Part shown: one piece after another, positions 3,129-47,066 of the stretch
How the letters are laid out: the number at the start of each line of letters is the position of its first letter
Position numbering within the stretch: the first letter of the stretch is position 1
NCBI GenBank assembly: GCA_025024175.1
Contig: QCXZ01000137.1
Span: 62,150,911-62,214,910 of the forward strand
DNA: 64,000 nucleotides
Source of the DNA: Rhyzopertha dominica
Taxonomy: Eukaryota; Arthropoda; Insecta; Coleoptera; Bostrichidae
Direction of reading: 5' to 3'
Notes under the pieces: generated by a model
What the model saw: only the letters and a program-made list of their open reading frames with translations
Database searches by the model: none
What the model was told of the DNA's origin: nothing
Translations under genes and position numbers: made by a program

Positions 3129-3159
3129 TTGGTTATTTTTTTCCTTATAAGTTCTCAAG

Positions 3160-3700: not shown

Positions 3701-3890
3701 ACTGCCTGAGGCACATCATGGCGAAAGACCTTACTCTCACTGCCTGAGGCACATCATGGCCAAAGACCTTACTCTCACTGCCTGAGGCACATCATGGCCA
3801 AAGACCTTACTCTCACTGTCTGAGGCACATCATAGCCAAAGACCTTACTCTCACTGCCTGAGGCACATCATGGCCAAAGACCTCGCTCTC
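3701..3890 (+). repeat. Tandem repeat, 38-bp unit x 5
   Basis: Five consecutive 38-bp units begin ACTGCCTGAGGCACATCATG and end in AAAGACCTTACTCTC. They differ by only a few substitutions (GCG/GCC, GCC/GTC, TTA/TCG). The array stops at ACTGAGCC. The unit has no coding pattern that continues across copies. Confidence 0.9.
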
Positions 3891-4247
3891 ACTGAGCCAA
3901 AATCAAGAACATTTCTCTCTGTCAAAAATGACACCTCAATACTCATTGCCTACTTTTGCATCTCCTCGCGACTCTGATATTTTCTCGCCAAAACAATTAA
4001 TCGCACGCATACGCATTCGCTCCGATATTAGTATTTATCTTATTAACAGCGATTCTAAACATAGCAAGAAATTAATAAACGTACAAAAACACCTTTTATT
4101 TTAATAATAACGCAGACACAAAAATTGACATTTAACAGTACCTAACAGCAACGAACGGCACCTACTTGTAACATAAATGTATTTCAAGCATAATTTATTA
4201 TAAAAAGTTAGCCTCATATATTCATATTGTCTTCATTGTACTATATA

Positions 4248-7085: not shown

Positions 7086-10000
7086 TATTCACATTTTTAG
7101 TATTAAAAATATACCTTACGATCCATTTTTTCGAATTTATAAGCTGTTACAGCTGTTTTGTGGATTAGATGCTACCTATTAAAATACAATTTAATAAAAT
7201 ATAAATACATGGCAAATACCCAATTGGACCTACTTCTAAGATGACTTACGCCCTAGAAATAGTCCCATTAGCAGTCGTTGCATATGCGGACAAAGATTAT
7301 ACCGTTGCATTTGCGGTAGATTAAAAATGTTTTTGCAGATAGCGTTTCATATGAGGTCTAGGGCGATAAAGATGTTATGAATTACGGCTTACACTCTAGA
7401 ATGTATGAACATAATTTAAAAGTTTATTGCCAATATACATTTATACTACACAAGAAGCTTGTATGCTGCTATTTTAAATAAACTCAAAATATCTTATACA
7501 TACCTAATATAAACCTACTTGTAAAGATAACTAGAAACCAATTTGATCCCGGCCTAATCAGTGGTTGGCAAAACAGAATACCTTTAAACGGGATTGCCCT
7601 TGGAGTTGGCGAAATAGCACTAAAACAGGTAAAAATTTTAATTTTACACTTGGCGAAACAAGAGTTGGCGAATCGGCAATATACCCATGCACTTAGCATA
7701 TCTGCAATAGCCCCGTTAGCAAAAGTATTTTTTAAAGTACTTGACTTCCAGTTTTATTGTAACATTCGTATTATATGCTCTTTCCTTATCAAATATATAT
7801 AATAAGGAAATATTGAGGTGTTGGATAATATATGTAATCTGTTATAATATAGTACTTTATATTTCGCTTGTATTATGATCTAATGTAGGTATAGGGTTAT
7901 TGTTATTGGGAAAGCAAGCTAAATTAAAATGACTCGAACCATAGCCACCTTCAATAAGGCCGCTGCCGCATCAATTTGGCAACAGCGCTCGCAAGGCCGA
8001 TTCTGTTTAAATTGAACGGATTAATACATGACCTACTCTTTGCACTAATGTAGTGTGTTCAGACTGATAATTTGGAATCTAGATTGGCTGTTACAGGCAA
8101 ATGGTCGGCAGAAATTTTGATATAATCGCTATTCAATTTTTCTAGTCAGAACCAAAACTGCGGTTTAAAAGTATATTTGCATTACAGTCAACTTTAGTGC
8201 AGAAATTTACAACTCTACACTTCGTGCTTCGAGAAAGTCTGTGAAGCACTAACAAAAACAAGTCATAGTTTTATCAAATCCAGAAGACACTGCAGCTGCT
8301 ATTTTTGTGACATTTAACTACAACTATACCTAGACGTTTTACAAATCAAGTACCTACTTATATTAGCGATTCTGTTGCATTCAAACTTGGACGAAAACTT
8401 AATAGCTTTTGAATGCATTTAATTAATGCATTAAATTGAAATGAATGAAAGATAATGATCATTGACCAGATCCTTATTACAATTTAATAAACGGTGGAGT
8501 TCATGTGCCATCTAGAATTGTTATCGAACGTGCGAAACACGTAGTATACGTGATGCAAATGTAAATATCTGAAAACATTGATAGATTGTTTATAACGGCA
8601 AGTACCTACAAAATAAAAGGTTATTTGGTTATTTTAAGTCGTGTTTTAAGTGAGATCCGTACTACATTGCTACTTATGCAATAATGGTCTAAAATGTACA
8701 ATAAAATCTCTCGTGTGAATTGTTAATAGTTGTTGTTATTTTAAGGTACGTTCGAATAAACTGTAGCCTCAGGTTTAATTATAAGAAATACTAAATACTT
8801 TATTTTTGGAAATACTTATGTAAATTTATTTATACCTTTTCTCTTGTTAGGTACATGGCTTAACATCTCAGAAACTCTTAATAAACCATTTTATATATTT
8901 CTTGTTACTGCAGAGATGTATTTTATATTTAATTATACCAAATAAATTGTTTCATTAGAAACAAATCCAATTTCTTTTGTAACGTATGTGGTTGTCGAAT
9001 TGTTCGTAAAATAAACCCTTTGTTTCAGTATGTTAGTGTGCTTGCCTTTGATTCGTAATTTTCTTCCTATTTAAGTTATCGCTATAAGATGTGTGGGGAT
9101 TGAATATAGTTAAGGTAAAAAGTACCAAAGTTCGTAAGCAATCTTTTTTAAATCAAAAAATATTTTTGTGCAAGTATGTATGTATAATCGATGCAGAAGT
9201 CCATCAAATTATGTATGCATAGGTGCAAAAATTAGTAAGCGGAACATTGTCTTTTTTTGGTAAAGTACTTTAAAAGAAATTTGGACTTATTTTCCAACAC
9301 CGATTAAATTAATGTGTGTACTGATTTGCAACTACTTACTTGTTCTTAGTGCGTATCCATTTCTTTGATTTATGGAAGCTTTTTTCATACTGCCTATGGT
9401 TATCCCTTTCAAAACAGGCCTTTAACCTGCCACATTACAATGAATTAGAATATAATAAAAATAGAGAACCCCTTTTTGAATTTTTTTAATGGGCTAGTTA
9501 TAATTTATTGCTACAAAATAGGCATTGCAATTACATTACCCTTTTTACCTCATAAAACTGAAGGCCATGAGGAATGTTTGACGGGTGTATTAGAAAATGT
9601 GAATAGGAGAGTAGATATTTAAGCCTTCAGAAAATGGTAATAAACTTTAAAAAAATCATCCATCTAGCCATTTTTAATGTGTAGTCATAATTTGAGATAG
9701 TTGGATGCATTATCCACCTAAGTTAGTCTTGATGGCGCAAAAATACACATACCTATCAGCAAATATTTTTGATTTAAGTGAAATACAACCTAAGATGAAC
9801 GTATAATAAAAGAATCGATTATTTATTAGACCCATACTCTTCCTTTACCATTTGAGCGTCATGAACAGTTGAGCACAAATCGAACTATAAAAGTCTTCGA
9901 TCCTTTTTATTTGCACTTTAATAAAAAATTTAATACCGCCCACCCCTCACATATAGCATGAAAGTTAATGGTCCGTCTCATTTCACATATCCAAATAATA

Positions 10001-16150: not shown

Positions 16151-16534
16151 TCATTGTCGTGATTTATATAGTAGCTGTTCCTTTTGGCTGGTTACGTGTT
16201 TGTACATGCTGCTCAAGCGATAGCTGTCTTCTTTGTTAAAGTTGTTGGGGTGCTCCATTATTTCCAGAGATTCTCTCGCAATTCTTTGGTGGTAGTGGCT
16301 GCTCCTTGCGATAGTCCGTACGTTGTCATACTCGATGATGTGTTGTTTGCCTCCTGCTACGTGTTTGGCCATGGCAGATATATCTGTGTGTCCATACGCT
16401 GCATCTTGGTGGTGTTCCTTTATACGACATTGTATGCTGCGTCCAGTTTGCCCGATGTAGACATTTTCGCAGTGACATTGGAGCTGGTAGTTTCCCTTGG
16501 TGTTTAGTTTCGGTGTTTTGTCCTTGGCCGATGG
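16151..16534 (-). pseudogene. Penelope-like element GIY-YIG endonuclease domain
   Basis: The minus-strand frame ends at 16151 and is open back to about 16534, where a stop interrupts it. It reads through a PKLNTKG linker, a Cys-rich lead (LQCHCENVYIGQTGRS) and the following RIKEH. CxC followed by VYIGQTGR is the GIY-YIG nuclease start of Penelope-like elements, with Y, G and R in place. The tail with ESLEIMEHPNNFNKEDSYRLS is also characteristic; its Glu (SLEI-E region) matches the catalytic position. In intact elements this domain nicks the target for target-primed reverse transcription. The upstream stop and damaged RT make this a dead copy. Confidence 0.85.
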
Positions 16535-16559
16535 TAGAATATGTCATATCTTTTGCACT

Positions 16560-23916: not shown

Positions 23917-23922
23917 TTGATG
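23917..23922. repeat. Polinton target-site duplication, left copy
   Basis: TTGATG lies directly before the 5'-AGTAGTAGG terminus and is repeated exactly at 31901-31906. Six base pairs is the standard Polinton duplication length. Confidence 0.92.
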
Positions 23923-23951
23923 AGTAGTAGGAATGTGGGTGTTCAAAGCCA

Positions 23952-24011
23952 GTGAGGATCACTTTTGATCCCATCTTAAAAGCATTGAGGATCAGAAAAG
24001 TTGATCCTCAC
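23952..24011. repeat. Terminal hairpin in left TIR
   Basis: GTGAGGATCA-CTTTT-GATCC pairs with GGATC-AGAAAAG-TTGATCCTCAC, leaving a loop of about 15 nt. The same hairpin is at 31812-31871 in the right TIR. It sits about 30 bp from the element end. Confidence 0.8.
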
Positions 24012-24083
24012 GGCGAATTTCTTATGGGCGAGCTGGTTCTAGCAAGCGCTCTCCTGACGGGCAACGGACCCGCATCTAGTGCA

Positions 24084-24122
24084 CGTTATCGCAAAAGGTT
24101 ATCGCAATAGGTTATCGCAAAT
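24084..24122 (+). promoter_or_regulatory. GTTATCGCAA iterons, left TIR
   Basis: Three spaced copies of GTTATCGCAA (spacing about 13 bp) follow the hairpin. The mirror copy is at about 31701-31739. Short direct repeats this close to a viral terminus are candidate binding sites for a replication or transcription protein; which one is not shown. Confidence 0.6.
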
Positions 24123-24226
24123 GTATTTTAATTAAAAAATAGTTCAAAAGTGATAAAGGTTGATAAAAAGTTGTTAATTAGCAGTCGCCTTGATCTGAGT
24201 TACGGACCTGCGAACTTATTCTTGAC

Positions 24227-24387
24227 GCGTGCAAAGGTTCTCGGAAGGGTTTCCTGCACTCGACCAAGTTCTAAACGCGTGAACTCGTTATGGGTGCGTG
24301 CAAACGTTCTCGAAAGGGTATCCTGCGCGAGACCAAGTTCTAAACGCGTAAACACGTTCTGGGTGCGTGCAAACATTCACGTGCTCG
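24227..24387 (+). repeat. 69-bp tandem repeat inside left TIR
   Basis: Two 69-bp units starting GCGTGCAAA and a third partial unit, GC-rich compared with the surroundings. A matching array is present in the right TIR (31436-31596). The reading frame across it lacks an ATG and is probably not a gene. Confidence 0.85.
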
Positions 24388-24655
24388 ATTAGCGACCCCC
24401 GTTTGAATAAGGTACTGCTTGCATACAAAGGTATGGGGAGGGCGGGACGTTTAAATGAAACTAGAGTGATGAACTAATTTACTTTATTGAGTAAATACAA
24501 AATGATTAAGTAAAAACATAGGTGTTCTTTAAGCACAATATGTCTATATAATTCCTAATAGGTGGTATGTGCAACAGCTCTGGCTGTTCCTCTTCCTCTT
24601 CTTTGGAAGTTTCATTGGTCTAGACAATGATAACGATTCCGACATCTACTAATCT

Positions 24656-24858
24656 TTATGTTAGTTTTCTCACATCTCCGCTGAGCGGGGAGTACTCGAA
24701 TATTCTGTCGTGCAGCAATAAACAGAACGCTGACGTATTGGCTGGTATACCACCATTTCCCGTTTCAAACTCCAACTTGATATCAATAGAACCTGCCTTT
24801 ATCTGTTCATTTTGATGACGGCAATCAATTACAGTAATTGGAGCTATATTCTTAAAAT
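24656..24858 (-). pseudogene. Duplicated 3' end of major capsid gene in left TIR
   Basis: On the minus strand this equals the last 67 codons and stop of the capsid gene at 29961-31169, with one Val-to-Ala change visible. It has no start or 5' part and cannot make capsid protein. It ends exactly where the integrase stub begins, which shows that right-end sequence replaced left-end sequence here. Confidence 0.92.
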
Positions 24859-25022
24859 ACTGTCAGCAGATAACGGAACCCTTTATTGTCGGAGGCATAC
24901 GGTTGCATTTCAACCAAATCAGCTTGCCAGAGATCAAAAAGTCCTTTCACTATCACTGTACGTCGCTTAAAATTACGACGTGGCCGAGTATGTAGCTCGT
25001 TCACCAGTTGAACTTTACTCAT
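24852..25022 (-). pseudogene. Polinton integrase, 5' stub (56 codons)
   Basis: An ATG at 25022 (in-frame TAA nine bases upstream) opens a peptide with NELHTRPRRNFKRR followed by the start of the rve core: LWQADLVEMQPY and KGFRYLLTV. The Asp in QADLVEM is the first residue of the D,D-35-E triad. The frame then runs into the TIR and stops at once. A full Polinton integrase has several hundred residues, with the other two acidic residues and a C-terminal domain that are missing here. In a complete element it would insert the DNA and create the 6-bp duplication, so it must have been supplied in trans. Fibre-like and DUF8207 genes lie upstream on the same strand. Confidence 0.88.
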
Positions 25023-25068
25023 TTCGATTTATTCAGAAAATAACCGTAAAACTGAATACAATGCGTAT

Positions 25069-25500
25069 TTATGAAGTGCGAAGTTTTTTATTACTAAGTT
25101 GTTCACCGACAGATTTCGGAAGTATACTGCTACCTTCTGGTTGTGGTTTATGGGGTACGTCAGATATGTCATTATTTTCAATGGGCAACGATTTATTTGC
25201 ATTCGTTATTTCACCGCTCGTATTTAATCTTTTTGACAGAGCAGCTAACGATTCAATTTTCTTCTCCAAGAAGTAAACGTTTTTTCGCAGTTCCCCTTTT
25301 AATGCATTGAACGTTTCGTCAACAAACTCCTTAGTAACTGCATCTTCCGGATTTAAAGGTTTGGCCAAGTTGCATATGCGTTTCTTTTGCACATCAATAT
25401 TTCCATCGGATGTTAGTACGTATCCAAAAGTAAGAGGCGATGAATGAGAAGGTTGTGCACCTTCAGAGCTGATGGCGCGTCCAAACTTATCAATACCCAT
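25069..25500 (-). CDS. Fibre-like / coiled-coil virion protein (putative)
   Basis: This 143-residue protein starts MGIDKFGRAI. Residues 33-61 (GNIDVQKKRICNLAKP, then DAVTKEFVD) match the register-forming motif found before the stalks of many phage and viral tail fibres, where sequences like N-x-KI-x-NL-x-P...DA-x-x-KxYVD trimerise. Residues 62-92 have heptad character. The C-terminus is polar and Pro-rich with no recognisable head domain. Gene position, leftward between integrase and the DUF8207 gene, fits an accessory virion gene. The fibre function is inferred from the motif; a structural scaffold is an alternative. Confidence 0.6.
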   Translation of the reverse strand: MGIDKFGRAISSEGAQPSHSSPLTFGYVLTSDGNIDVQKKRICNLAKPLNPEDAVTKEFVDETFNALKGELRKNVYFLEKKIESLAALSKRLNTSGEITNANKSLPIENNDISDVPHKPQPEGSSILPKSVGEQLSNKKLRTS

Positions 25501-25535
25501 GTTAGAAATGAAACGTAAAGAACGTTTTGCACAAT

Positions 25536-26447
25536 TTAAATGATAACATTGGTCTCTCTTAACTCTTCCAATATAGAAGTGATTTCATTTGAATGATTAT
25601 TATGGCCGGCTTCTTGAGATGCAAGTAAGAGTTTCAATCTAGCAACCAATTCGTTCGGATCATCCCAATACACGTAATCTAACTTATTTTTTGAATATTT
25701 CATTAATCCTGAACCGGTAGGCGGTAGAGAACCTTTAAGCTTTAAAAGATTCATTATCAGTTTATATTTGTGACTTTTGTTTCCAGCATACTGCAATGAT
25801 TTGTCATAATTACGATGTATAGCTCCGCTTCTCTGGACAATATCCAAATATGAATCAACGTCATCTTCCGTATACAACTTCTCTGAAGGGTAACGAGAAA
25901 AGATAAGCTCCTGCAAACCAGATGTTAGGGGATAACTCTTGCCGTCTACTAGAGCATTAGAGTCAATTACTGCAAATGACGAATCACCAATTTTCCAAGC
26001 TAACTTCTTTGTATCATAACGTGGTCCGTATTTAGAATCGTAATTACTATCTAGCTTTATCGAATCCATAAATCTATTGGTATTAAATTCTAAAACATCT
26101 GAAGATGTTCTTGAATAGTCTTGGAAACTAAGATCGGGTTCGACTAGCGACGAAGCAGCCTCGTCAAAACTGTCGGGTTCACTTCTAGAGTCTTCGTCCG
26201 AGTCAAAGGTTGTATGAAAACTTGCATTTTGCTCGTGCTTTTCTGTCTTCAATTTACCCGCGAGCGCATCTGGCAAGTGCTGAATTTGCTGAGGTAGATC
26301 GGACAGTTTCTTGAGCGGTGTTGTTATAGGCTGAAAAACTCTCTCTAGGTCAGCCTCAATTTCGCTTCTTCCCTTCTTTAAGGCTGCATACTTTTTACGA
26401 ATGACATTGCGAGTTTGAATAATTTTCTTAACCGTATCTGGATCCAT
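25536..26447 (-). CDS. DUF8207-type Polinton protein
   Basis: I chose the ATG at 26447 (MDPDTVKK), giving 303 residues; the frame upstream lacks another ATG. Residues 1-60 are charged and helical, 70-115 acidic and low-complexity. The conserved block spans about 138-302: YGPRYD, PLTSGLQELIF, YTEDD, AGNKSHKYK, YVYWDDPNELVARLKLL and NEITSILEEL. This block matches proteins annotated as DUF8207 that accompany Polinton-type capsid genes in insects and cnidarians; the assignment is from memory. Its job is unknown. Because it persists beside virion genes in an element without polymerase, a structural or assembly role is plausible. It lies 35 bp upstream of the fibre-like gene on the same strand. Confidence 0.75.
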   Translation of the reverse strand: MDPDTVKKIIQTRNVIRKKYAALKKGRSEIEADLERVFQPITTPLKKLSDLPQQIQHLPDALAGKLKTEKHEQNASFHTTFDSDEDSRSEPDSFDEAASSLVEPDLSFQDYSRTSSDVLEFNTNRFMDSIKLDSNYDSKYGPRYDTKKLAWKIGDSSFAVIDSNALVDGKSYPLTSGLQELIFSRYPSEKLYTEDDVDSYLDIVQRSGAIHRNYDKSLQYAGNKSHKYKLIMNLLKLKGSLPPTGSGLMKYSKNKLDYVYWDDPNELVARLKLLLASQEAGHNNHSNEITSILEELRETNVII

Positions 26448-26514
26448 TTTTATCTCCTGTATTGTTGTGGTTTTTAACAACTGCACAAACAGCTAACTGC
26501 TGATCGGATTTATT

Positions 26515-26902
26515 AGAACAGCCTGATCACTGATCTTTTGGAACAGCCTGATCACTGATCTTTTGGAACGGTCTGATCACTGATCTTTTGGAACGGTCTG
26601 ATCACTGATCTGTTGGAACAGCTTGATCACTATTCTGTTGGAACAGCGTGATCACTGATCTGTTTTAACAGCTTGTTCACTGATCTGTTCGAACAACTGA
26701 TCACTGATCTGTTCGAACAACTGATCACTGATCTGTTGGAACAGCCGATCACTGATCTGTTGGAACATCCGATCACTGATCTGTTAGAACAGCTGATCAC
26801 TGATCTGTTGGAACAGCTGATCACTGATCTGTTGGAACAGCTTGATCGCTTATCTGTTGGAACAGCTTGATCACTGTTGGAATAGTCTGATCACTGATAC
26901 AG
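26515..26902. repeat. Tandem array of 24-25-bp units with TGATCA core
   Basis: About 16 units of the form GAACAGC(T)TGATCACTGATCTGTTG separate the DUF8207 and ATPase genes. Early units are 25 bp and later ones 24 bp, which keeps a short reading frame open on both strands by chance. Each unit holds a near-palindrome TGATCAcTGATC. The spurious peptides across it are repetitive and unlikely to be genes. Confidence 0.92.
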
Positions 26903-26971
26903 TATTATTACCTGTTTGATCAGGTCCTCGTTTGAAGAGTGACTGACTGTGCATTTCGTTAACCTTACTAT

Positions 26972-27664
26972 TTATATAAGAATAAAGGTATCAAATCCTT
27001 TACGATATCGTCCCTCATCCATGGGAACGTCTTTATTGATAACCAGAAATCCATATTTGTTTTTCCAACACTCTGTGCATATTTCCCTAAATTGTTGGAA
27101 AGACATATCCGTGTTGACATGGTCATCATAGATATGTTTAATATTTAAAATATCACAGACGTACACTATGAGCAAGTTGGCGTTTTCTCTAATTAGATGT
27201 TTTGGAATGTGTGTATATGACTGACCTAAATAAAAACTGTCAATATTTCTATGTCGTCCCATGCAAAAATAATCCCTCATATGCTGCTGTTTCTGACAAG
27301 CCACGTCATCAAAAATAAAAACAGAGTTCGGTTTCGCTTCATCAGGTGGAATAACTTCATCGTGCTCTGAAAATGTGTAATATCCAACGCCTTTGACCCC
27401 AGAAAGCAAGTTTCGAAGGTAGTTATATTTTGGCTGATAGAGCGTCTTTGAGTAAACATAAACGTTTTCAAATTTTAATCCGTTGGGATGTTCTAGTAAA
27501 TTTATCAGCAAATTCGTTTTTCCACAGTTTGAGGGACCCACAATTAGTGCCCGTATTGTGTTAGGCAAGAGTTTGCTGTGTCTGCAAGGTCGTTTGTTGT
27601 CCACATTGAAATTCTCCTCTATGTTCGAAACAGGTAACTTTTCTTGTTGTCGGAACAAGCGCAT
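26972..27664 (-). CDS. Packaging ATPase (FtsK/HerA, A32-like)
   Basis: The 230-residue protein starts at an ATG at 27664. Walker A is VGPSNCGKT (residues 42-50), Walker B SVFIFDDVA (114-122), and a downstream YLGQSYTHIPKHLIREN (145-161) provides the polar sensor-like motif. Size and motifs match the genome-packaging ATPases of Polintons, adintoviruses and virophages, relatives of poxvirus A32. It would drive DNA into the capsid made by the rightward genes. It is transcribed leftward from a 109-bp divergent region shared with the PLA2 gene. All catalytic motifs look intact. Confidence 0.92.
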   Translation of the reverse strand: MRLFRQQEKLPVSNIEENFNVDNKRPCRHSKLLPNTIRALIVGPSNCGKTNLLINLLEHPNGLKFENVYVYSKTLYQPKYNYLRNLLSGVKGVGYYTFSEHDEVIPPDEAKPNSVFIFDDVACQKQQHMRDYFCMGRHRNIDSFYLGQSYTHIPKHLIRENANLLIVYVCDILNIKHIYDDHVNTDMSFQQFREICTECWKNKYGFLVINKDVPMDEGRYRKGFDTFILI

Positions 27665-27773
27665 TTTATCAACTGTTTAAAAAATAAATAGGAGCATCCA
27701 TTTAAAGAAAACTTAGTGTGTAACGAAACACGCATGTGTGAACAACAACAGCAACAACGATCTCTGTGTAAAG
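27665..27773. promoter_or_regulatory. Divergent promoter region between ATPase and PLA2 genes
   Basis: The only gap between the leftward and rightward gene blocks. It is AT-rich, with a TATA-like TTTAAAAAATAAATA at about 27676-27690. Position makes it the likely shared promoter region; no element was proven. Confidence 0.45.
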
Positions 27774-28622
27774 ATGCCAAAAAAAATTTCAAAGTCCAGG
27801 ATTAATCGTCGTTCTGGTACTCAAGGGACAGGACTTCTAAATAAACTTATTGATCGTTTGCCATTCGAAGCGCATTTTCCTCATTATTCTTATTGTGGCC
27901 CTGGAACGAAATTGCAGGAAAGACTTAAGCGTGGAGACCCGCCCCTTAACCCTTTAGACGCCGCATGTAAAGAACACGACATTGCCTACTCGCAAACGAA
28001 AGATACGCGCGCTAGAAATCAAGCCGACCTGATACTCGCTGAGAAGGCCTGGCAACGAGTTTTAGCCAAGGATTCTAAATTAGGCGAAAAAATACCTGCT
28101 TGGCTCGTGGCTAACGCGATGAAAACCAAAGCAAAACTCGGGATGGGAATGAAAACAGATCAACAGCCCAAAGTTAAGGATTCCAAATCTCAGGATAATA
28201 AGAAAGCTGCAAAAGAAGAAATTTCTTTGCTTGATATCATAAAAAGAACAAAAACTGCTTTGAAACTGAAGAAGCCTACAAATTTAGATGATGCAATCGA
28301 ACTTGCGCTCTCGGAAGCAAAAAGATGTGTAGCGGGAAAACGTGCAAAGCTACTCCGGACACGCGTCATTCGAATTCCAAAGACTGGCGGCATATTACCA
28401 GCGCTCTTGCCTATTTTCGCAGCTCTTACGTCAATAGGAAGTATTGCGTCTGGAGCAGCCAGCGTTGCCAAGGCAGTGAATGAAGCAAAAAATGCACGTC
28501 AACAGTTGGCTGAAAGCGAACGTCACAATAAAACCATGGAAGCAATCGCAATTGGAAAAGGCCTGTACCTCAAACCATATAAGAAGGGTTTAGGACTTTT
28601 TTTAAGACCAAAAAACTTCTAA
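27774..28622 (+). CDS. PLA2 / adenovirus pX-like virion protein
   Basis: The ATG at 27774 (MPKKISKSR) gives 282 residues; the frame upstream has only a GTG. Residues 37-100 form a parvovirus-VP1-type phospholipase A2: calcium loop YCGPGT (40-45) and catalytic HD in KEHDIAYS (68-69), both complete. In parvoviruses this enzyme breaches endosomal membranes. A Lys-rich linker follows. Residues 197-238 read RVIRIPKTGGILPALLPI and a small-residue-rich hydrophobic helix, like the membrane-active part of adenovirus core protein pX. The C-terminus GKGLYLKPYKKGLGLFLRPK looks conserved. Its last codons include two slippery heptamers leading into the -1 protease frame. Adintoviruses carry PLA2 and pX-like homologues, which supports a virion entry or core role. 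Confidence 0.88.
   Translation: MPKKISKSRINRRSGTQGTGLLNKLIDRLPFEAHFPHYSYCGPGTKLQERLKRGDPPLNPLDAACKEHDIAYSQTKDTRARNQADLILAEKAWQRVLAKDSKLGEKIPAWLVANAMKTKAKLGMGMKTDQQPKVKDSKSQDNKKAAKEEISLLDIIKRTKTALKLKKPTNLDDAIELALSEAKRCVAGKRAKLLRTRVIRIPKTGGILPALLPIFAALTSIGSIASGAASVAKAVNEAKNARQQLAESERHNKTMEAIAIGKGLYLKPYKKGLGLFLRPKNF
28598..28616 (+). promoter_or_regulatory. Candidate -1 ribosomal frameshift signals (two slippery heptamers)
   Basis: In the PLA2 reading frame T TTT TTA lies at 28598-28604 and A AAA AAC at 28610-28616. Both are classical X XXY YYZ slip sites in the correct register, placed 4-8 codons before the PLA2 stop. A -1 slip enters the protease frame, which is open from 28583 and has no ATG. 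A weak stem (AGTGT 28622-28626 with GCACT 28640-28644) starts 5 nt downstream. No strong pseudoknot was identified. Confidence 0.55.
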
Positions 28623-29002
28623 GTGTACTGCCGGATCGAGCACTCAATGAATACGACTTGTACAAATTTGCTAAGAAAATTCCTAATTTTCGAGGTGTGT
28701 ACATGTTGGACGAATTGCCTTTACGGCCACGCCGTCGCAAAGAATGTGCAATCATCAACTTGAATAAATCTAACGAATCCAGCAGTCACTGGGTAGCAAC
28801 ATATTATAATAAAGACAAGAATCAGTGCCTCTACTTTGACAGTTTCGGGAACCTGAGACCGCCCAAGGAAATTGTAAAGTATCTAGGAGAAGGTGTGCAG
28901 TACAACTATGATAGATATCAGAGTGATAATACTGTAATATGCGGTCATTTATGTTTATTATTTTTATATCATTGTACCTATAAATCAGGCGACTTGAAAT
29001 AA
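28622..29002 (+). CDS. Adenain-like cysteine protease (PRO)
   Basis: The conserved part shows the catalytic set of the Ulp1/adenovirus protease family: His in SSSHWVA, Asp in YFDSFG, Gln in RYQSDN and Cys in VICGHLCL. FRGVYMLDELP precedes it, as in Polinton proteases. The frame is open from 28583, overlapping the PLA2 gene, and holds no ATG until inside the conserved FRGV(Y)M motif; starting there would cut into the fold. Start is therefore unresolved: -1 frameshifting from PLA2, a non-ATG start (TTG at 28658) or splicing. The coordinate given is the first codon after the PLA2 stop. The stop codon lies within an AATAAA at 28998-29003. The enzyme should mature virion proteins. Confidence 0.85.
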   Translation, partial: SVLPDRALNEYDLYKFAKKIPNFRGVYMLDELPLRPRRRKECAIINLNKSNESSSHWVATYYNKDKNQCLYFDSFGNLRPPKEIVKYLGEGVQYNYDRYQSDNTVICGHLCLLFLYHCTYKSGDLK

Positions 29003-29031
29003 ATGTATTCAGTTTGACTGTGTGCTTTATC

Positions 29032-29715
29032 ATGTCAAGAATCCTTAGTTTTTCGGGCAACGAGTCCTCGTTGACAGCCAACTATTTTCCTCCGATAGAC
29101 CTGACAACACCGTACGAATGCGGTTTAGTGAGCCTCTTTACGTATAATAGTATTCCGAATGTCGACGAAAGCAACAATCTGTTTCACGTTGGCAATCAAA
29201 CTATAGTATTGGCAGAAGGAGCTTACGAACTGGAAGCTATTGCAGAGTACATTGAAACTTACTTAAGAGAAAAAAAGAGTAATATTATAGTCAATATTCG
29301 CGCAAACACGAATACATTGAGGACTGAAGTCAAAAGCACTCATCCTGTATATTTTAACAAAGAACGTTCGATTGGTTCTCTTTTGGGATTTAGTAAGCGC
29401 ATCATAGAGCCCAACAAAATGGTAGAGTCTGATTTACCTGTCAATATAAATAGGGTTAATTCCATTCGCGTAGAATGTAATATTATTACCGGAGCTTACC
29501 ACAATAATAGACTTGTTCACACTCTGCACGAATTCTCCCCCAACGTTTTGCCTGGCTACAAGATTAACGAGGTGCCAAAGAATATTATTTACTTACCTGT
29601 AAACGGAACTTGTATTAACTCCGTTACTGTCAGACTGGTAGATCAAGATGGAAAAGATCTCAACTTTCGAAATGAAAAAATTACGATTATTTTACATTTG
29701 AGACCGTCTACCTAG
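29032..29715 (+). CDS. Penton-like minor capsid protein (single jelly roll)
   Basis: The ATG at 29032 (MSRILSFSG) yields 227 residues; a TTG lies six codons upstream. The N-terminal part (YFPPIDL...YECGLVSLFTYNSIPNV) and the C-terminal block (NIITGAYHNN, LHEFSPNVLPGYKINEVP, then LVDQDGKDLNFRNEKITI) match the minor capsid or penton proteins of Polintons and adintoviruses. In those particles this protein forms the fivefold vertices. It follows the protease by 29 bp and precedes the small basic ORF and the major capsid gene, all on the plus strand. No damage is visible. Confidence 0.82.
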   Translation: MSRILSFSGNESSLTANYFPPIDLTTPYECGLVSLFTYNSIPNVDESNNLFHVGNQTIVLAEGAYELEAIAEYIETYLREKKSNIIVNIRANTNTLRTEVKSTHPVYFNKERSIGSLLGFSKRIIEPNKMVESDLPVNINRVNSIRVECNIITGAYHNNRLVHTLHEFSPNVLPGYKINEVPKNIIYLPVNGTCINSVTVRLVDQDGKDLNFRNEKITIILHLRPST

Positions 29716-29796
29716 ACTGTTATATAAGGTTTTGTCCACAACCAGTCATGTTAGTAAGCTGTTTGACTTTAACAGAGTCAGAGATAAAGAAGAGTC

Positions 29797-29964
29797 ATGC
29801 TTATTTTTAATAAATATACACCAAAGACGACTACACCGATTAGTTGTGACTTAGGTGTGCAACGATCAACAAGCAGATTGAAACGAGCTGCACCAAGGCG
29901 TTTAACGAAGGAAAATAGACAGTTCTTGAAATCGTTGGGACTAACGGTACTTTCACAAAAATGA
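29797..29964 (+). CDS. Small basic protein overlapping the capsid start
   Basis: An ATG at 29797 gives 55 residues ending in a TGA whose bases overlap the capsid ATG (ATGA at 29961-29964). The peptide is strongly basic in its second half (RSTSRLKRAAPRRLTKEN) and ends RQFLKSLGLTVLSQK. Lengths and position, directly before the major capsid gene, suggest a real virion or DNA-binding protein rather than chance. I have a vague memory of similar short LTxxNxxFLKSLG peptides in relatives but cannot name a family. Function unknown. Confidence 0.6.
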   Translation: MLIFNKYTPKTTTPISCDLGVQRSTSRLKRAAPRRLTKENRQFLKSLGLTVLSQK

Positions 29965-31169
29965 ACTATCTACTGGACATCACAGAGCTTCCTCGCTTTG
30001 ACGAGACAATAATCAAAAAGGAGTATCATACGTATTCGCCGTATATAGAGTCATACAATCCAAGTGACACCATCCAAATCTGTGTTCATCATCAAGACTT
30101 GGTTTTGTTACCGTCAGAAAGTTTCTTGTACGTTGAAGGAACTTTGACAGATGAGAATGATGCTGCGGTGAATACAATTAAACTTACCAACAACTGTGCT
30201 GCTTTCATGTTTGAGGAAATTCGCTACGAATTAAATGCAATCGAAATAGATCGTACCAAAAACGTTGGTATTTCTACGTCTTTAAAAAATTACGTTTCTC
30301 TAAGTCCAAGTGAAAGCGATGCCCTTCTTAATGCAGGCTGGAATTTAAAAGACGACCGGTTGTTATCAGCAGAAAACGGAAAGTTTAACTTTTGCATACC
30401 GTTGAATAAGTTGCTTGGATTCGCTGAAGACTACAAGAAGATTATACCAAACGCTAAACACGAACTGATACTGATAAGAGCGAAAACAGATGAAAACAGT
30501 GTAAAAACTGCTCTTGCAAGGTACAAGTTTAATATTAAGAAAATCAACTGGAAAGTGCCTCATATTACACTTAATGATGCAGAACGTCTCAAGTTGTATG
30601 AGACTATTCAGAGCGATCTGTCGATTCAAATCAGCTTTCGAAGCTGGGAACTTTATGAATTTCCCAACGTGCCGCAGTCGACATCGAATATTTGGCGTGT
30701 GAAAACTTCTAACCAGTTGGAAAAGCCGCGATTTGTGATTTTTGCTTTGCAAACAAACAAGTTGTATAATCTTAGAGAAAATCCTAGCGAATTCAGTACA
30801 TGCAGACTAAACAATGTGAAAGTCCATCTTAATTCTCAAGTATTCCCGTACGAAAATTTGCACGTTTCCTTTGATGAAAATCGCTACGCCTTATTGTATT
30901 ACATGTACAGTAAGTTTCAAGAGGCTTACTACGGTGAGAACCCATGTCCTTTGCTAGATCCTTCAAATTTTAAGAATATAGGTCCAATTACTGTAATTGA
31001 TTGCCGTCATCAAAATGAACAGATAAAGGCAGGTTCTATTGATATCAAGTTGGAGTTTGAAACGGGAAATGGTGGTATACCAGCCAATACGTCAACGTTC
31101 TGTTTATTGCTGCACGACAGAATATTCGAGTACTCCCCGCTCAGCGGAGATGTGAGAAAACTAACATAA
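29961..31169 (+). CDS. Major capsid protein (double jelly roll)
   Basis: This 402-residue protein has the features of Polinton/adintovirus major capsid proteins found in insects and cnidarians: SESFLYVEGTL, then FMFEEIRYELNAIEIDRTKN and VGISTSLKNYVSLS, with ITVIDCRHQNEQIKAGSIDI and FETGNGGIPANTSTFCLLLH near the C-terminus. Family members form pseudo-hexameric capsomers from two jelly rolls. The reading frame is intact. The last 67 codons lie in the right TIR and are duplicated antisense in the left TIR. The start overlaps the small basic ORF (ATGA). A polyadenylation signal AATAAA lies at 31335-31340 in the TIR. Confidence 0.88.
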   Translation: MNYLLDITELPRFDETIIKKEYHTYSPYIESYNPSDTIQICVHHQDLVLLPSESFLYVEGTLTDENDAAVNTIKLTNNCAAFMFEEIRYELNAIEIDRTKNVGISTSLKNYVSLSPSESDALLNAGWNLKDDRLLSAENGKFNFCIPLNKLLGFAEDYKKIIPNAKHELILIRAKTDENSVKTALARYKFNIKKINWKVPHITLNDAERLKLYETIQSDLSIQISFRSWELYEFPNVPQSTSNIWRVKTSNQLEKPRFVIFALQTNKLYNLRENPSEFSTCRLNNVKVHLNSQVFPYENLHVSFDENRYALLYYMYSKFQEAYYGENPCPLLDPSNFKNIGPITVIDCRHQNEQIKAGSIDIKLEFETGNGGIPANTSTFCLLLHDRIFEYSPLSGDVRKLT

Positions 31170-31900
31170 AGATTAGTAGATGTCGGAATCGTTATCATCG
31201 TCTAGACCAATGAAACTTCCAAAGAAGAGGAAGAGGAACAGCCAGAGCTGTTGCACATACCACCTATTAGGAATTATATAGACATATTGTGCTTAAAGAA
31301 CCTATGTTTTTACTTAATCATTTTGTATTTAATCAATAAAGTAAATTAGTTCATCACTCTAGTTTCATTTAAACGTCCCGCCCTCCCCATACCTTTGTAT
31401 GCAAGCAGTACCTTATTCAAACGGGGGTCGCTAATCGAGCACGTGAATGTTTGCACGCACCCAGAACGTGTTTACGCGTTTAGAACTTGGTCTCGCGCAG
31501 GATACCCTTTCGAGAACGTTTGCACGCACCCATAACGAGTTCACGCGTTTAGAACTTGGTCGAGTGCAGGAAACCCTTCCGAGAACCTTTGCACGCGTCA
31601 AGAATAAGTTCGCAGGTCCGTAACTCAGATCAAGGCGACTGCTAATTAACAACTTTTTATCAACCTTTATCACTTTTGAACTATTTTTTAATTAAAATAC
31701 ATTTGCGATAACCTATTGCGATAACCTTTTGCGATAACGTGCACTAGATGCGGGTCCGTTGCCCGTCAGGAGAGCGCTTGCTAGAACCAGCTCGCCCATA
31801 AGAAATTCGCCGTGAGGATCAACTTTTCTGATCCTCAATGCTTTTAAGATGGGATCAAAAGTGATCCTCACTGGCTTTGAACACCCACATTCCTACTACT
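30967..31900 (-). repeat. Right terminal inverted repeat
   Basis: Mirror of 23923-24858. It includes the 3' end of the capsid gene, its polyadenylation signal, a mini-ORF with a basic motif, 69-bp repeats, iterons and the terminal hairpin, ending CCTACTACT. Confidence 0.95.
31180..31281 (+). CDS. Mini-ORF with nuclear-localisation-like motif (doubtful)
   Basis: An ATG 11 bp after the capsid stop opens 33 codons containing KLPKKRKRN, a classical monopartite nuclear localisation pattern. The mirrored left TIR copy keeps the frame with one Ser-to-Leu change. It may be a small nuclear protein or just 3' UTR. Confidence 0.3.
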   Translation: MSESLSSSRPMKLPKKRKRNSQSCCTYHLLGII

Positions 31901-31906
31901 TTGATG
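31901..31906. repeat. Polinton target-site duplication, right copy
   Basis: TTGATG, identical to 23917-23922. Confidence 0.92.
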
Positions 31907-39540: not shown

Positions 39541-42500
39541 CTAATGCGAAGAAGAGGTACTAGGTTGCTCACTACCAGGAGTATTATCCTGCAAAGAAGG
39601 AACATGTCTTACTCGTTTTACTTTAGCTAAGTTAACTGTAGTATTTCTGTTATTTGAATATTTACCAAACAATTTTGTTTTGTCTTGTTTTTCTACCTCA
39701 ATTGTATCATAAATGGGTTTGTTTTTTGAAGTTAGTTGTGCTCGATGCAAGTATACTTGTTTATTTTCCAAAGTTGGTATAGCCTCTGAATTTTGATTTT
39801 GCCTATTCAGTCGTGCATTAGCTTGTTCTTGCATTTTATTAAATAATTCATCGTAAAATGGTAGCAGTTCCTTTTTGCGCTTTTCATTGTAATGCTCGTA
39901 AATGGTCAACTCAAGATCGATATCTGGTTCTCGTTCATAAGGCCCGTAAAGAAGATAAAAAGGGGAATGTTTTGTAGCACTATGTATGCTAGAATTATAG
40001 ACTAGTACAGCCGTTGCCATCCAGTCAGCAGGGGTATCTTTGGGAGTTTCTAATCGTAATATGCGTAATTTTTCGGTAATGGTCGAATGTAGGCGTTCAA
40101 TCGGAGAGTTTGAGTTGGGATTATCAACTGTAGTAAAGTGCAGTTCAATTTTTAATAATTTTAAATACTCTTGTACCGTTTTGTTTTTAAATTCAGCACC
40201 GGAATCACAAACTATTCTTTTTGGATATCCGTGGTGGGAAAAATAATGCCGCAATTTATTACAAATAGTGATAGCGTTTGTATCTCTTATGTTGTATGCT
40301 TGAGCATACCGGGAAAACAAATCAATTATGGTTAAAAATTTTGTATTTTGAAAAGTGTAAGTATCAATGTGCAACGTATCAAAGGGTCTCTTAGCCGAAA
40401 TGGGTCCTTGAAGAGGAATTTTATATGGATTTCGTTCATATTTAGATCTCAAACAAGAATTACATTGATTTACGATATTCGAAATTGTATCTTTCATTTT
40501 CGGCCAATAAAATTCTTTTCGTAAGTGTTCGTACGTTTCGTGAATGCCGTTATGTGTTTTATCGTGGTAATTTTTCGTTAGCTCTTTTTGTTCTTCTGAT
40601 TTTGTGACATCTTTTAAATAAGTGTTGCACAAGAATAATTTGACTGAATCGTTAAATAAATTTTGACATATTGCTAGGAATGTAGGCCGTATTCGGTGAT
40701 CTATGAAATAGAATGCATTCGATTTATTTAAATCGATAATTTCGAGGGCCCGATGTAAATCAGCTTCTAAATGTTTAAAACGCAGGGTAAATTTGTGTGT
40801 GATTTTTTCTCCAAACAATATAATAGTCTTATGCGAATATGATTCAGATATATTAAAGATAAACCGCACGGGAAAATGATTAGCGGGTTTTTCACTGATG
40901 GGGACTGTTTTTCCTATAAAATCGCCTTTTGAGTGAGCTGTGTCATAGTTTGAGATGGTCGGGGGAACGTAATTGTCTGATTGTTGTCTTAAAGAGTCAA
41001 AGTCTTCATCGGTTAATGTAGGATTTTCATTGATTTGTGGTATGATTGATTCATTATCTTCTAAAGCATTTATTTCTTGTCTGCTTAAAGCATCCGCCAC
41101 GTAGTTAGTCTTTCCTTTTTGATAACGAATTTCAAAATTGTACTCCTCCAATTTCAATCTCCATCGAACTAATCGTGCATTAGGTTCCTTTAATTTTGAA
41201 AGCCAAACAAGAGGTCTGTGGTCTGTCTCAATAATAAATTTTTGACCAAACAGATAGGGTCTGAAATGTTTACAAGAATCTACAATAGCCAATAATTCTT
41301 TTTCTATAGTAGAATAATTTTTCTCTGCCGAATTTAAAACTCTTGAGTAAAATGCGATAGGTTTGGAATTTTGGGAAAGAACAGAATCGATTGCCACATT
41401 ACTAGCGTCTGTAGTTAGTGTAAATTGTTGTTCAAAGTCGGGATAGGTCAGTATAGGTGCATTACATATGAGTTCCTTACAGTATTCGAAATCCTTTATG
41501 TACTCATCATCATTTATATTTAATTTAGAATCTTTTCTTAAACATTTTGTCAAAGGTTGAACTATTCTTGCAAAATTTTGTATGAATCTTCTATAATAAC
41601 CAACCAGTCCCAAAAATTGTTTAATTTGCTTTGTAGTAGTTGGTAAAGCATAATTTTGTATGGCCATAATTTTTTCTGGGTTAGGTTTTATTCCAGAAGG
41701 AGTTATGACGTGCCCCAAAAAAGCAACATCCTTGCGCAAAAATTCGCACTTTTCCAGTTGTACTTTAAGGTTAAACTGTCTGAACTTGGAGAAAATTTGT
41801 TTTAGGTGACTTAAATGTTCTTGCAGAGATTTAGAAAACACGATAACATCGTCCATGTAAACGAAACACGATTTGTGTAAATATTCTTTCAAAATGTTAT
41901 CCATAACCCTCTGAAAAGTTGATGGACCGTTCTTTAAACCATATGGAAGACGAAGGTACTCATAATGGGCGTTAGGCACCGAAAATGCAGTCTTTTCAAT
42001 CGAATCAGGGTGTAATTCGATTTGATGAAACCCTTGTGCAAGGTCAAGAGTCGTGAAGTAAGTACATCGTCCTAAGTTGTCGAGGATTTCATCAATGCGG
42101 GGAATGGGGTACTTGTCCTCAATTGTCTTGTCATTTAGTTTACGGAAGTCTATGACCATGCGATATTTTCTTTTTCCCGAGGCGTCAGCCTTTTTAGGAA
42201 CTATCCAAACCGGTGCCGAGTAAGGGGAAATTGAAGGTCTTATAATGTTATCATCTAATAGTTTCTTTATTTGGGAGGATATTTCAGTTTTCATTGCAGG
42301 GGGGTGTCTAAAACTTTTGACGTAAACGGGGGTGTCGTCTGTGGTGCGTATATGATGCTTAATTGCGTTTGTGAAAGTTAAGTTTGAGCTTTCTTGGTAA
42401 AATATATCCGAATATTGCTTGCAAAGTTTTGAAATTTCTGTTTTTTCTTCCATATTCATGTGCTGGGTGCGTAATTGATCTGTAATGTTTTGAGGTGTCG

Positions 42501-43169
42501 TTCTGGATTTAGGTAATTCAATATCATGCGTAAATAGAGAATCCACTGGAATTCTTTCCGTAAAATTAATTTGAACTGGTTTTTCAATTGGATTTGGAAA
42601 ATAGCAATAACCATTGAAGGCTTTATTTATTGAAGCGGGTAAAGAAAAGTGTTGAAATTTGATCTCCGGGGTGATAACATCGCCTTGTAATATGGTAACG
42701 GGTACTGGAATTGTTTTATTGCATGTTTTTGTTTCACAAAATTTTCGTGTAGTGTATTCTATGCTAAAAGGAATTTTAATGTTATCGAGTTCAATAAGAT
42801 TATTTCTATAATCAATGTTTGCTTGTAAATTTTCAAAGTCATCTGTTCCAATAAGAGCATCATAAAAATCATGCCACTTTACTACGTGAAAATTAAAAGG
42901 ATAATTAATTCCTAGTTCGTGAAGTATGGGGTATGAAATGTTTTTATTGTCTATTACAGTTTTTCTAAATCCTGTAATTTCAAAGGGGCTTTCAAATACA
43001 TAATCTGAAAATTTTGAATATGCAATTTCTGGGTTCATTACTGAACTAGAAGCGCCGGAATCGATTAAAATGCGTAAATTCAGTGAAGGTAAATAAATGT
43101 GAGGTAAAGTAGGTCGTCGACTTAAACTATTTAAATTTACGTTGGGTAATCCGCCTGGGTTGCAAACTG
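39541..43169 (-). CDS. pol: Pol polyprotein (protease, RT, RNase H, integrase)
   Basis: The frame is open from the gag overlap to a stop at 39541; the first ATG (43038) lies after the protease active site, so translation should enter by -1 frameshift. Protease: LRILIDSGASSS just upstream of that Met (DSG instead of DTG). Counting from Met 43038: RT about 240-420 with LDLAQGF and YMDD (394-397); RNase H about 545-665, starting TTDAS and ending DALSR; integrase with an HHCC finger (H...H, CNSC) and a D,D,E core (LHIDTY, VCDSGAEF, SPIERLHS) about 830-1060. No frame damage is visible, so this copy could supply enzymes. Confidence 0.93.
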
Positions 43170-44480
43170 AAAATTTTGTTCCATAACTGAAAAATTTTGT
43201 TCTATATTTGGATCATCAAAACCTTCTTCATCGATTTGACCAGAACTTTGTTGTGGATAATATTGTTCTTCTGTATTATAATATTCAAAATCGGAAATCT
43301 GCTGTGGATTTTCAGAAAATTTTTGTTCTGCTTGAAAGTTTTTGTTTTCGTGAGAATGTAATTCTTCGGAAATAAAATTTCTAACTTGTCCCGGCCTGGA
43401 TGCAAAGTAATTTGTAGGTCGAAAAGAGGTTTGCTTAGTTGATATCGACATTGGCGTAGGGGTAAACTGTTTTTGAACTGACTGCTGTTTAAGCTGAGTT
43501 CCAAACAACGGTTTAGTTGCAGGTATAGGTTTCGACAAATTTGATTTATCGGCATTGTATTGAAACGGTAAATGATTTTGAAAATTATATTGCCTAGGTA
43601 TGCTTTGTGTTTGAACATTTCTAGAAGTAGACGCTTGAACAAAATTATTCCTGAAGGTAGGTATATTTAAATTATTAAATGGCAATTTCGGTTGCGCAAA
43701 AGTCGGTTTATTTTGAGTAAATACTTTAGGAGTTGACTGTAATTTGCGCATAGTGTCAACGCACTGAAAACTTAAATTTTCATTTTCTAATTTTTGACAT
43801 TTTGCGATTGCTTCTTGCAAATTTTTAATTTCGAACAAACGTAAGTAACTGCGGTATGGATCTTGTAAACCTAATATGAATTGCTTCACAGCTTTGCGCT
43901 CATACATTTTCTTATAAGCAACACTTTCTGATGAATCAGCAACATTAAGGTTAACGTACTGGCATAAGTCGTTAAGACACTGAACAATTTTCGAATACAG
44001 ATCTAAATATGATTCTCTGTTAATTTGGAAGCATGATTCTAAAGCGTTTTCTAAAACAGATTCATCCCTCAAATCACCGTATCTGTTCAGAAGTTCGGTT
44101 CTGATAGTAGTCCAATTAGTAGCATTTGTGTTATTTATGTAATTTGAAGGTTCTCCACGGATTTTTTGTAATACATTTGAATATAACATATGTTCTTGGT
44201 CTGCATTTAATCGGCCTGATAAAAGTGCGACTAAACTGTCAACCGCTTTTAAGAATTTTGATAAATTGGATTGATCATCAAAAATAGGTAAACCGTCCAA
44301 CAAGATTTTTAAGCCTGTGTCAGTAATTGGAGTATTGGTCGTCATGGTAACGGTGTCTAATAAGCACTGATTAGATTCGAAATTGGTTGTTTCACTTACG
44401 TCTAAAGACTGACTAGTTGAAGGTGAATAAGGATTGAATTTTGATTCTTTGATTAATTTCACTTCAAGATTTTTGGGCAT
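43137..44480 (-). CDS. gag: Gag protein
   Basis: An ATG at 44480 opens 447 residues. Residues 45-230 are a helical capsid-like region (LLDGLPIFDD...FILGLQDPYRSYLRLFEI...AIAKCQKLE) like Ty3/gypsy gag. The remainder is rich in Gln, Asn, Pro and Ser with no CCHC zinc knuckle, as usual for errantiviruses. The C-terminal part overlaps the pol frame. Intact. Confidence 0.9.
   Translation of the reverse strand: MPKNLEVKLIKESKFNPYSPSTSQSLDVSETTNFESNQCLLDTVTMTTNTPITDTGLKILLDGLPIFDDQSNLSKFLKAVDSLVALLSGRLNADQEHMLYSNVLQKIRGEPSNYINNTNATNWTTIRTELLNRYGDLRDESVLENALESCFQINRESYLDLYSKIVQCLNDLCQYVNLNVADSSESVAYKKMYERKAVKQFILGLQDPYRSYLRLFEIKNLQEAIAKCQKLENENLSFQCVDTMRKLQSTPKVFTQNKPTFAQPKLPFNNLNIPTFRNNFVQASTSRNVQTQSIPRQYNFQNHLPFQYNADKSNLSKPIPATKPLFGTQLKQQSVQKQFTPTPMSISTKQTSFRPTNYFASRPGQVRNFISEELHSHENKNFQAEQKFSENPQQISDFEYYNTEEQYYPQQSSGQIDEEGFDDPNIEQNFSVMEQNFQFATQADYPT
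43170..43176 (-). promoter_or_regulatory. Candidate gag-pol -1 slippery site
   Basis: On the sense strand the gag codons CAA AAT TTT contain the heptamer A AAT TTT in the register that shifts into the pol frame, about 35 nt before the gag stop. A near-copy of this sequence lies just upstream. Confidence 0.55.
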
Positions 44481-46491: not shown

Positions 46492-46724
46492 TCATTGTGT
46501 AAAAAAGAATACAAAAGAATTTATAAACCTGACATTGTCAAAATCAAAACAAGCAAACTTGACTTCAAACGAAAAAGTAGCCTGCATGCCAAAAGCACAA
46601 ACATGAAATCAATGATCAAATAAAGAATTTAGAAAAGGAAAACTAAAATTACAAAAATAATTCAAAATTGCAAAATTACCATTTTGTTCGCAATAAAGAC
46701 AAAATTCCAGTTTTGAATTAATCG

Positions 46725-47066
46725 AGAGTTTATAGTTTTTCTTGTAACGATTGTAATTCTGTTTATATTGGTCAAAGCGGAAGATCTTTTTCAATTAGAG
46801 GCAATGAACACTTGAAACAATATGAAAAATATAAAAATACTGATATAGTTAATACAAATTCTTCATTAGCAAATCATTTATTGTCATTCAAACACACCAC
46901 CTCTTTAAATAATTTAAATTCTTTACATGTTTGTAATAAATCCTCAAAATTAAATTTTCTTGAATTTCTTGAAATATACAAAATTATAGATAACGGTAAT
47001 TTTACAATTTTGAATGATTTTTGTAATTTTAGCTATCCTATTCTAAATTTTTTATTTGATCATTGA
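46725..47066 (+). pseudogene. Penelope-like GIY-YIG endonuclease fragment
   Basis: Reading RVYSFSCNDCNSVYIGQSGR, then FSIRGNEHLKQY, LANHLLSFKH and LNFLEFLEIYKI. CNDC followed by VYIGQSGR is the Penelope endonuclease start, and the closing E-F-L-E-I-Y block matches the C-terminal helix with the catalytic Glu. A stop lies just upstream at the inversion junction, so the RT part is missing. Confidence 0.82.

Follow-up and report, generated by a model that had tools for sequence, protein, structure and literature searches.

A Polinton of Rhyzopertha dominica with a copied capsid end, a candidate analogue of defective-interfering genomes

Here we describe a Polinton/Maverick element of 7978 bp in the beetle Rhyzopertha dominica, located at positions 23923–31900 of a 64,000-nucleotide stretch of contig QCXZ01000137.1 (assembly GCA_025024175.1; the whole stretch is referred to as the window). 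Its left terminal inverted repeat (TIR) carries a copy of the capsid end that lies at the opposite side of the element. We read it, with a probability of roughly 0.77, as a Polinton genome that was integrated in a rearranged, integrase-defective form and as an analogue of arm-replacement, or defective-interfering-like (DI-like), genomes. The window case is not a lone oddity, as two further copy-back junctions are present in the same genome.

Results

The copied end of the window element

The hexamer TTGATG directly flanks both ends of the element and represents its target-site duplication (TSD; left, 23917–23922; right, 31901–31906). In an alignment of 936 columns, the TIRs (23923–24858 and 30967–31900) differ by 4 mismatches and one gap of 2 nucleotides (nt); the length of this repeat at 99% identity far exceeds chance. 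All differences fall within 24491–24843, and the outer 568 bp are without any. The outermost 435 bp of the left TIR (23923–24357, forward strand) represent the original, parental-length repeat, the only TIR part that is common to the integrase ends of the parental insertions described below. The corresponding right TIR of parental length (31466–31900, reverse strand) is, in its outer 184 bp, 95% like that of a PolB-bearing relative. The inner part of the left TIR (24358–24858) is an antisense copy of a source segment in the right arm (30967–31465), which comprises the capsid 3' end and the 3' untranslated region (3'UTR) and thus includes the last ~67 codons of the capsid open reading frame (ORF; 30967–31169). 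This extension ends at a blunt joint (24858/24859) that, by eye, shows no microhomology.

Beyond the joint lies an N-terminal remnant of the integrase gene (24859–25022, reverse strand). Starting from an ATG at 25022, about 55 codons can be read up to ...RYLLTV, followed by one junction codon and a stop, which yields an ORF of 56 amino acids (aa). Ten protein relatives of this short ORF were found, the best being 76% identical and three carrying a precomputed Pfam rve annotation; an exact match was not present in the protein records, where short ORFs may simply not have been predicted. An earlier note on this DNA, made from the letters alone, had described the antisense capsid codons in the left TIR and the intact duplication outside both ends, and the alignment and flanks bear out both. 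Its placement of the cut in the integrase frame at 24858 likewise held, while its figure of 56 codons has to be corrected, being the length of the ORF with the junction codon rather than of the integrase portion.

Parental insertions in the same genome

We searched the genome (479 Mb in 138 contigs; loci are named by contig and Mb) for relatives of the element. A search for the packaging ATPase returned 231 candidates, of which 150 were scored, and at least 152 matches; at least 19 rows among these were at least 98% identical and without a stop, a count that takes in the window and two sites that scaffold gaps made appear twice. In the near-identical family, whose arms were read, 21 insertions had a classifiable left end, 12 of them parental (P) and 9 copy-back. 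P insertions have a TIR of ~435 bp (some carry an insert of 39 nt or are 11 nt shorter), and the integrase end was free of capsid sequence in all 12; relatives with the capsid 3' end normally in both TIRs, which would have told against the earlier note, were not observed. Their gene order is 435-bp TIR, a 166-aa ORF, integrase, the virion genes with the capsid gene last, and second TIR, and the copy at C1:10.96 Mb measures 9,280 bp from tip to tip. The 166-aa ORF has, by eye, a start resembling a signal peptide and an end resembling a membrane span, and the 308-aa integrase has an rve match plus a Chromo match just below the cut-off. In 10 of the 12 P copies the integrase is open and full-length (one of these has an undetermined base, and in another the start lies outside the sequence read); of the other two, that in C5 has 285 aa and that at C136:47.0 Mb is broken. 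Two P copies bear left-arm deletions, namely C137:28.57 Mb, which lost the 166-aa ORF and kept the integrase, and the C5 copy. These deletions in P-type copies, of 571 and ~68 nt, illustrate another route of arm loss, with the TIR unchanged.

Scaffold gaps of 100 N lie in or beside family copies and create false tandem dimers, and copy counts therefore need care. Apparent head-to-tail dimers at C53:12.40, C86:12.92, C3:62.55 and C41:11.11 Mb were rejected because a 100-N gap separates the halves. These four loci and C136:31.36 Mb were each counted as one insertion whose ends lie on different assembly pieces, and C136:46.99 and 47.01 Mb, with left flanks 99.5% alike, were treated as a single insertion duplicated in the assembly. 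C41:31.9 Mb, represented by a right end only, stands outside the class count, and some close relatives (for example C136:60.90 Mb) were not included.

Three copy-back junctions

The window junction, D1, is contiguous at no fewer than three loci, the window, C1:14.37 Mb and C53:17.65 Mb, none of which has a gap at the junction. A query spanning it returned 73 candidates, of which 40 rows were scored, and the remaining 37 of the 40 match one side only. The C53 copy has one additional T at the joint and lacks ~72 nt further inside. All three copies carry the same 56-aa ORF, and the whole 166-aa ORF is gone as well; the actual loss at D1 is most of the integrase and the 166-aa ORF. Given that P relatives combine the shorter TIR with a complete integrase, the earlier notion that an integrase arm was lost and a right-arm copy gained is supported.

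At a second junction, D2, the 3'UTR runs into the 166-aa ORF, and five loci carry this joint (C136:49.69, C41:21.78, C41:13.70, C3:62.55 and C3:55.74 Mb). Four of them share TGTCTA at the joint, a microhomology of ~6 nt by eye, and C41:13.70 has one substitution there. The 166-aa ORF is truncated in all five and the integrase is broken in four, the exception being C3:55.74 with an open 308-aa integrase. At the third junction, D3 (C136:31.36 Mb), a 2.44-kb right-end copy including the entire capsid gene stands ahead of a partial left TIR, with 2 shared nucleotides at the joint (by eye) and the left arm kept. Over the outer 1204 nt this copy is 99.8% identical to the right end of the same element, which is located past a scaffold gap; lying close to that gap, D3 is the least secure of the copy-back junctions. 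All of these junctions have the same direction, from the capsid end to the integrase end.

Repeated integration and exchange of ends

TIRs and a 6-bp TSD, the hallmark of Polintons/Mavericks, are present in the window element and in 19 of 19 insertions for which both ends were read, the TSDs being perfect in each and all distinct. For D1 they are TTGATG in the window and TAAATT and GTAAAT in the remaining copies. When the D1 and D2 insertions, eight in all, were compared over 400 nt of flank, the flanks had only TA-type repeats in common; over 35 nt, a D3 flank is 89% identical to a D2 flank, and at C3:55.74 one flank matches the other in inverted orientation over 98 nt. Because the TSDs differ and the flanks are unrelated, D1 and D2 each integrated repeatedly, rather than one locus having been duplicated. 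Moreover, the presence of the D1 junction at three loci with different TSDs indicates that the rearranged form existed as a mobile molecule. Two predictions of the earlier note, that further copies with exactly this junction exist and that the rearranged form integrated after it arose, are thus supported, the former by two more loci with TSDs of their own.

The left and right ends of these elements have separate histories. The D2 left extensions are identical over the stretches compared, 189 nt in four copies and 180 nt in the fifth, and the right arms opposite them differ: C136:49.69 and C3:62.55 are of one type, that of C41:21.78 equals the one in the P copy at C53:19.60, that of C3:55.74 is near the type of the window element, and C41:13.70 is yet another. 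The occurrence of the same D2 left end on different right arms implies that ends have recombined. Similarly, the C53 D1 copy has a left extension with 1 difference in 426 positions from the C1 copy, and its right arm is identical to those of two P copies and one step from three others. A capsid variant at window position 30982 is found in six of eight D1/D2 right arms versus none of 11 others (nine P, D3 and one unclassed), and all three D1 left copies carry the alternative letter. It follows that the D1/D2 right arms share ancestry that is absent from the left copies, and that the copies did not simply stay frozen from insertion onwards. The variant may also serve as a marker of copy-back lineages. 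We had considered the inner TIR differences of the window element to be simply post-insertion mutations, an idea that was dropped as five further right arms carry the 30982 variant. The median number of TIR differences is 2 within an element versus 11 between elements, with repeat units blurring some of the alignments.

PolB and PolB-bearing relatives

A genome search with PF03175 returned 106 candidates, of which 91 were scored, and at least 64 matches, many with long open frames; loci with an intact polB include C137:27.92 Mb and C136:19.93 Mb. Each of these 64 polB matches is at least 47 kb away from all 22 family loci, the spans being approximate for a few incomplete loci. More distant relatives were found on C36 and C6. 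The C36 relative has a capsid gene 91% alike (2840–4042) and polB (8159–8857) beyond it, and its right end matches the window TIR with 95% identity over the outer 184 bp, the first 37 nt being identical. The C6 relative has a capsid gene 90% alike, and C6 contains no polB match. In both, DNA likeness to the window family ceases at or just before the capsid stop codon, save for a weak 59-nt match of C6 to the 3'UTR (E 2.8e-4). C41:26.87 Mb, likely a member of the tip-sharing subfamily, carries polB with one stop. We infer from these arrangements that loss of the PolB arm in this family preceded the copy-backs, and enzymes recognising the common tip could act on the window family.

These relatives also bear on what the earlier note had inferred about polB. 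It had proposed that polB was probably lost together with the integrase end, which does not hold, the immediate parents being already without polB and the C36 polB lying on the capsid side. The full relatives that it envisaged, with a shorter TIR and with integrase and polB on the left arm, exist as far as the TIR and the integrase arm are concerned, and polB is not on that arm. Two side observations concern the same relatives. C36 and C6 have a 185–204-aa ORF (NWIVMDVQGLRGKDNEF...) after the capsid gene, which the window family is without, and the left arm of C6 (8000–9999) contains a homologue of the 166-aa ORF and a 294-aa Ser/Thr-rich ORF with a hydrophobic start (by eye).

Gene content of the window element and its neighbourhood

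Polinton/Maverick virion genes are present in the window element, with a double jelly-roll (DJR) capsid, penton, packaging ATPase and adenain/Ulp1-type protease. The retroviral-type integrase is reduced to the ~55 codons and PolB is absent. Seven genes are present, all of their frames being open; in the D1 copy at C1:14.37 Mb the ATPase frame is broken and the phospholipase A2 frame is cut close to a 100-N gap, and in that at C53:17.65 Mb the penton frame is broken. Following the integrase remnant, a 171-aa stop-to-stop ORF (25069–25584, reverse strand) has a weak, below-cut-off match to the phage T7 tail fibre N-terminal domain, and a 303-aa ORF (25536–26447, reverse strand) has no assigned function. 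Between the latter and the ATPase lies an array of 24/25-bp tandem repeats (26482–26900), which is open on one strand as an 86-aa repeat ORF. The ATPase (26972–27676, reverse strand; Pox_A32), a phospholipase A2-like domain protein (27717–28622, forward strand; Phospholip_A2_4) and an adenain-like cysteine protease (28583–29002, forward strand; Peptidase_C5) have Pfam matches above the cut-off. The 227-aa penton-like minor capsid protein (29032–29715, forward strand) was modelled by AlphaFold2 with a predicted local distance difference test score of 89.5, and its best PDB match is the mavirus penton 6g41 (E 3.9e-8). The DJR capsid (29961–31169, forward strand) matches the Pfam DJR-like_dom with E 1.2e-120. 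Among the 120 of 1656 capsid matches listed, the relatives that carry names are insects. Scans of viral contig and genome contig collections with the capsid, as single sequence and as alignment, revealed no relatives, and the capsid profile had no match among PDB sequences.

Elsewhere in the window, two ORFs of 1223 and 447 aa (39541–44480, reverse strand) resemble, by eye, pol and gag of Ty3/Gypsy-type retrotransposons. ORFs at 16151–16543 (reverse strand) and 46722–47066 (forward strand) contain a VYIGQ(T/S)GRS-like stretch, which recalls the GIY-YIG endonucleases of Penelope-like elements.

Discussion

Protein-primed copying of linear genomes is established for pPolB elements, and the simplest mechanism for the window element is such copying with a switch into the left arm. 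The parent would have belonged to a PolB-less family like the C1:10.96 Mb copy, replicating as a linear molecule. A strand begun at the capsid end would have copied the TIR and ~500 nt of the capsid arm, and would then have moved, probably by template switching, into a left arm at its integrase gene. In the resulting molecule the left end would be a right-end copy, with the 166-aa ORF and most of the integrase gone. Since both ends keep the terminal sequence, copying and insertion could be carried out by enzymes of intact relatives, which would supply PolB and integrase in trans, and the outcome would be a defective form integrated at three places. In keeping with DI-like genomes, the element has an end copied from a fuller genome together with gene loss, and its terminal cis sequences (tips, TSDs) are intact. 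The three D1 integrations are without a full integrase gene and intact relatives co-occur in the genome, where they may have acted as helpers. The joints (blunt in D1, ~6 nt in D2, 2 nt in D3) fit loose template switching or end joining.

Several points weigh against this account. The D1 joint has no microhomology and is thus not by itself proof of template switching, and the family is known here from assembled, integrated genome copies alone. No intact polB was found in the tip-sharing subfamily, the open frame in C36 having 265 aa. A 100-N gap interrupts the C1 D1 copy in mid-element, away from the junction, and D3 lies near such a gap; at the gap-split P loci C53:12.40 and C86:12.92 Mb, the integrase is open on one piece and broken on the other. 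Finally, end homogenisation is not universal, as TIR pairs with 9 or more differences occur in 7 of 19 elements.

These points have to be considered together with other origins of the long TIR. It might represent an expansion of the end, adaptive or neutral, of the kind seen in poxviruses, with the copied end favoured for a packaging or priming signal and the genome not being defective at all. The presence of one D2 left end on different right arms, the open integrase of C3:55.74 and the left arm retained in D3 would all suit such an expansion, but D1 retains little of the integrase and nothing of the 166-aa ORF, and D2 truncates the latter in every copy and has a broken integrase in four of five, so that we consider it rather unlikely. 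We give still less weight to end replacement on a chromosome, in which the repair of a break in an integrated element would have entered the other TIR, extended past it into the capsid arm and been closed within the integrase, the altered element being mobilised in trans later. In chromosomal DNA, inverted repeats are established to undergo one-sided conversion, and the product would be the same, with the same intact TSD. However, remobilisation would be needed anyway to place D1 at three and D2 at five sites with distinct TSDs and unrelated flanks, and three separate junctions together with the exchange of right arms fit a pool of co-replicating genomes better. For the founding event, chromosomal repair followed by remobilisation is possible.

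An assembly artefact at 24858 might be suspected given the faults elsewhere in the family, where 100-N gaps split or duplicate copies; with all three D1 junctions ungapped, their flanks unrelated and each copy having its own TSD, this is very improbable. We find it equally hard to credit a single event that removed integrase and polB from a complete Polinton. Such an event could draw on the PolB-bearing relatives in the genome, but it is contradicted by parents that have a full integrase arm and are already without polB, and by the position of the C36 polB on the opposite side of the capsid gene. We therefore retain the reading as a rearranged, integrase-defective genome. More tentatively, and with the balance of our judgement against it, one may picture a chain of dependence that leads from PolB-bearing Polintons via PolB-less forms with integrase and virion genes to integrase-less copy-backs, each using enzymes of the level above, with copied ends spreading as units by recombining onto different genomes.

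To our knowledge, free linear virus-like replication of animal Polintons has been argued mostly from gene content. Genomes with a copied end that integrated repeatedly would record, as fossils do, linear replication as well as co-replication and the use of helpers, and their junctions and reassorted ends provide a concrete marker to seek in other genomes. They would also allow defective genomes to be counted and dated in a group of DNA viruses. The literature searched, in which coverage of subscription papers was thin, yielded no account of Polintons in copy-back or DI-like form.

Comparable end replacements are known from several viruses. Incomplete particles of adenoviruses, which replicate by protein priming, reportedly contain linear genomes in which one end is duplicated and replaces the other (work of Daniell in 1976 and Tibbetts in 1977). 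These genomes resemble the window element; theirs are transient in infection, whereas those described here persist as separate integrations. Poxviruses have hairpin-ended genomes and reside in the cytoplasm. They do not integrate, and their expansions are known from virus isolates, in contrast to the separate genomic integrations observed here. In 2022 Mpox, expansion of the inverted terminal repeat is described, in the accessible portion of the report, as duplication of an end piece to the opposite end with a deletion at the insertion site and longer repeats (PMC10230479), an architecture that, so described, equals the terminal arm replacement of the window element. The same architecture is seen in the Towne and AD169 variants of human cytomegalovirus, as far as the available text of PMC2885757 covers them, the difference being that these are herpesvirus strains. 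Copy-backs of negative-strand RNA viruses are truncated, have complementary ends and result from the polymerase changing template (PMC12363239, summary text); on that description they differ from the window family in being RNA, the latter being DNA with pre-existing TIRs.

The window element itself belongs with the Polintons/Mavericks (Polintoviricetes), being like the animal 'adintovirus'-like group in its TIRs, 6-bp TSD, DJR capsid, penton, protease and ATPase, and its parents add an rve integrase with a sub-threshold C-terminal Chromo match. Parts of PMC11071296 name a chromodomain integrase as an adintovirus trait, define adintoviruses by an OTU-bearing PolB and a BLAST-recognisable hexon, and mention genomes with adenovirus-class virion genes and no recognisable PolB and integrase. 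Unlike Polintons/Mavericks, the 22 family loci have no PolB, and the window copy is also without most of its integrase and bears a copy of the capsid 3' end in its left TIR.

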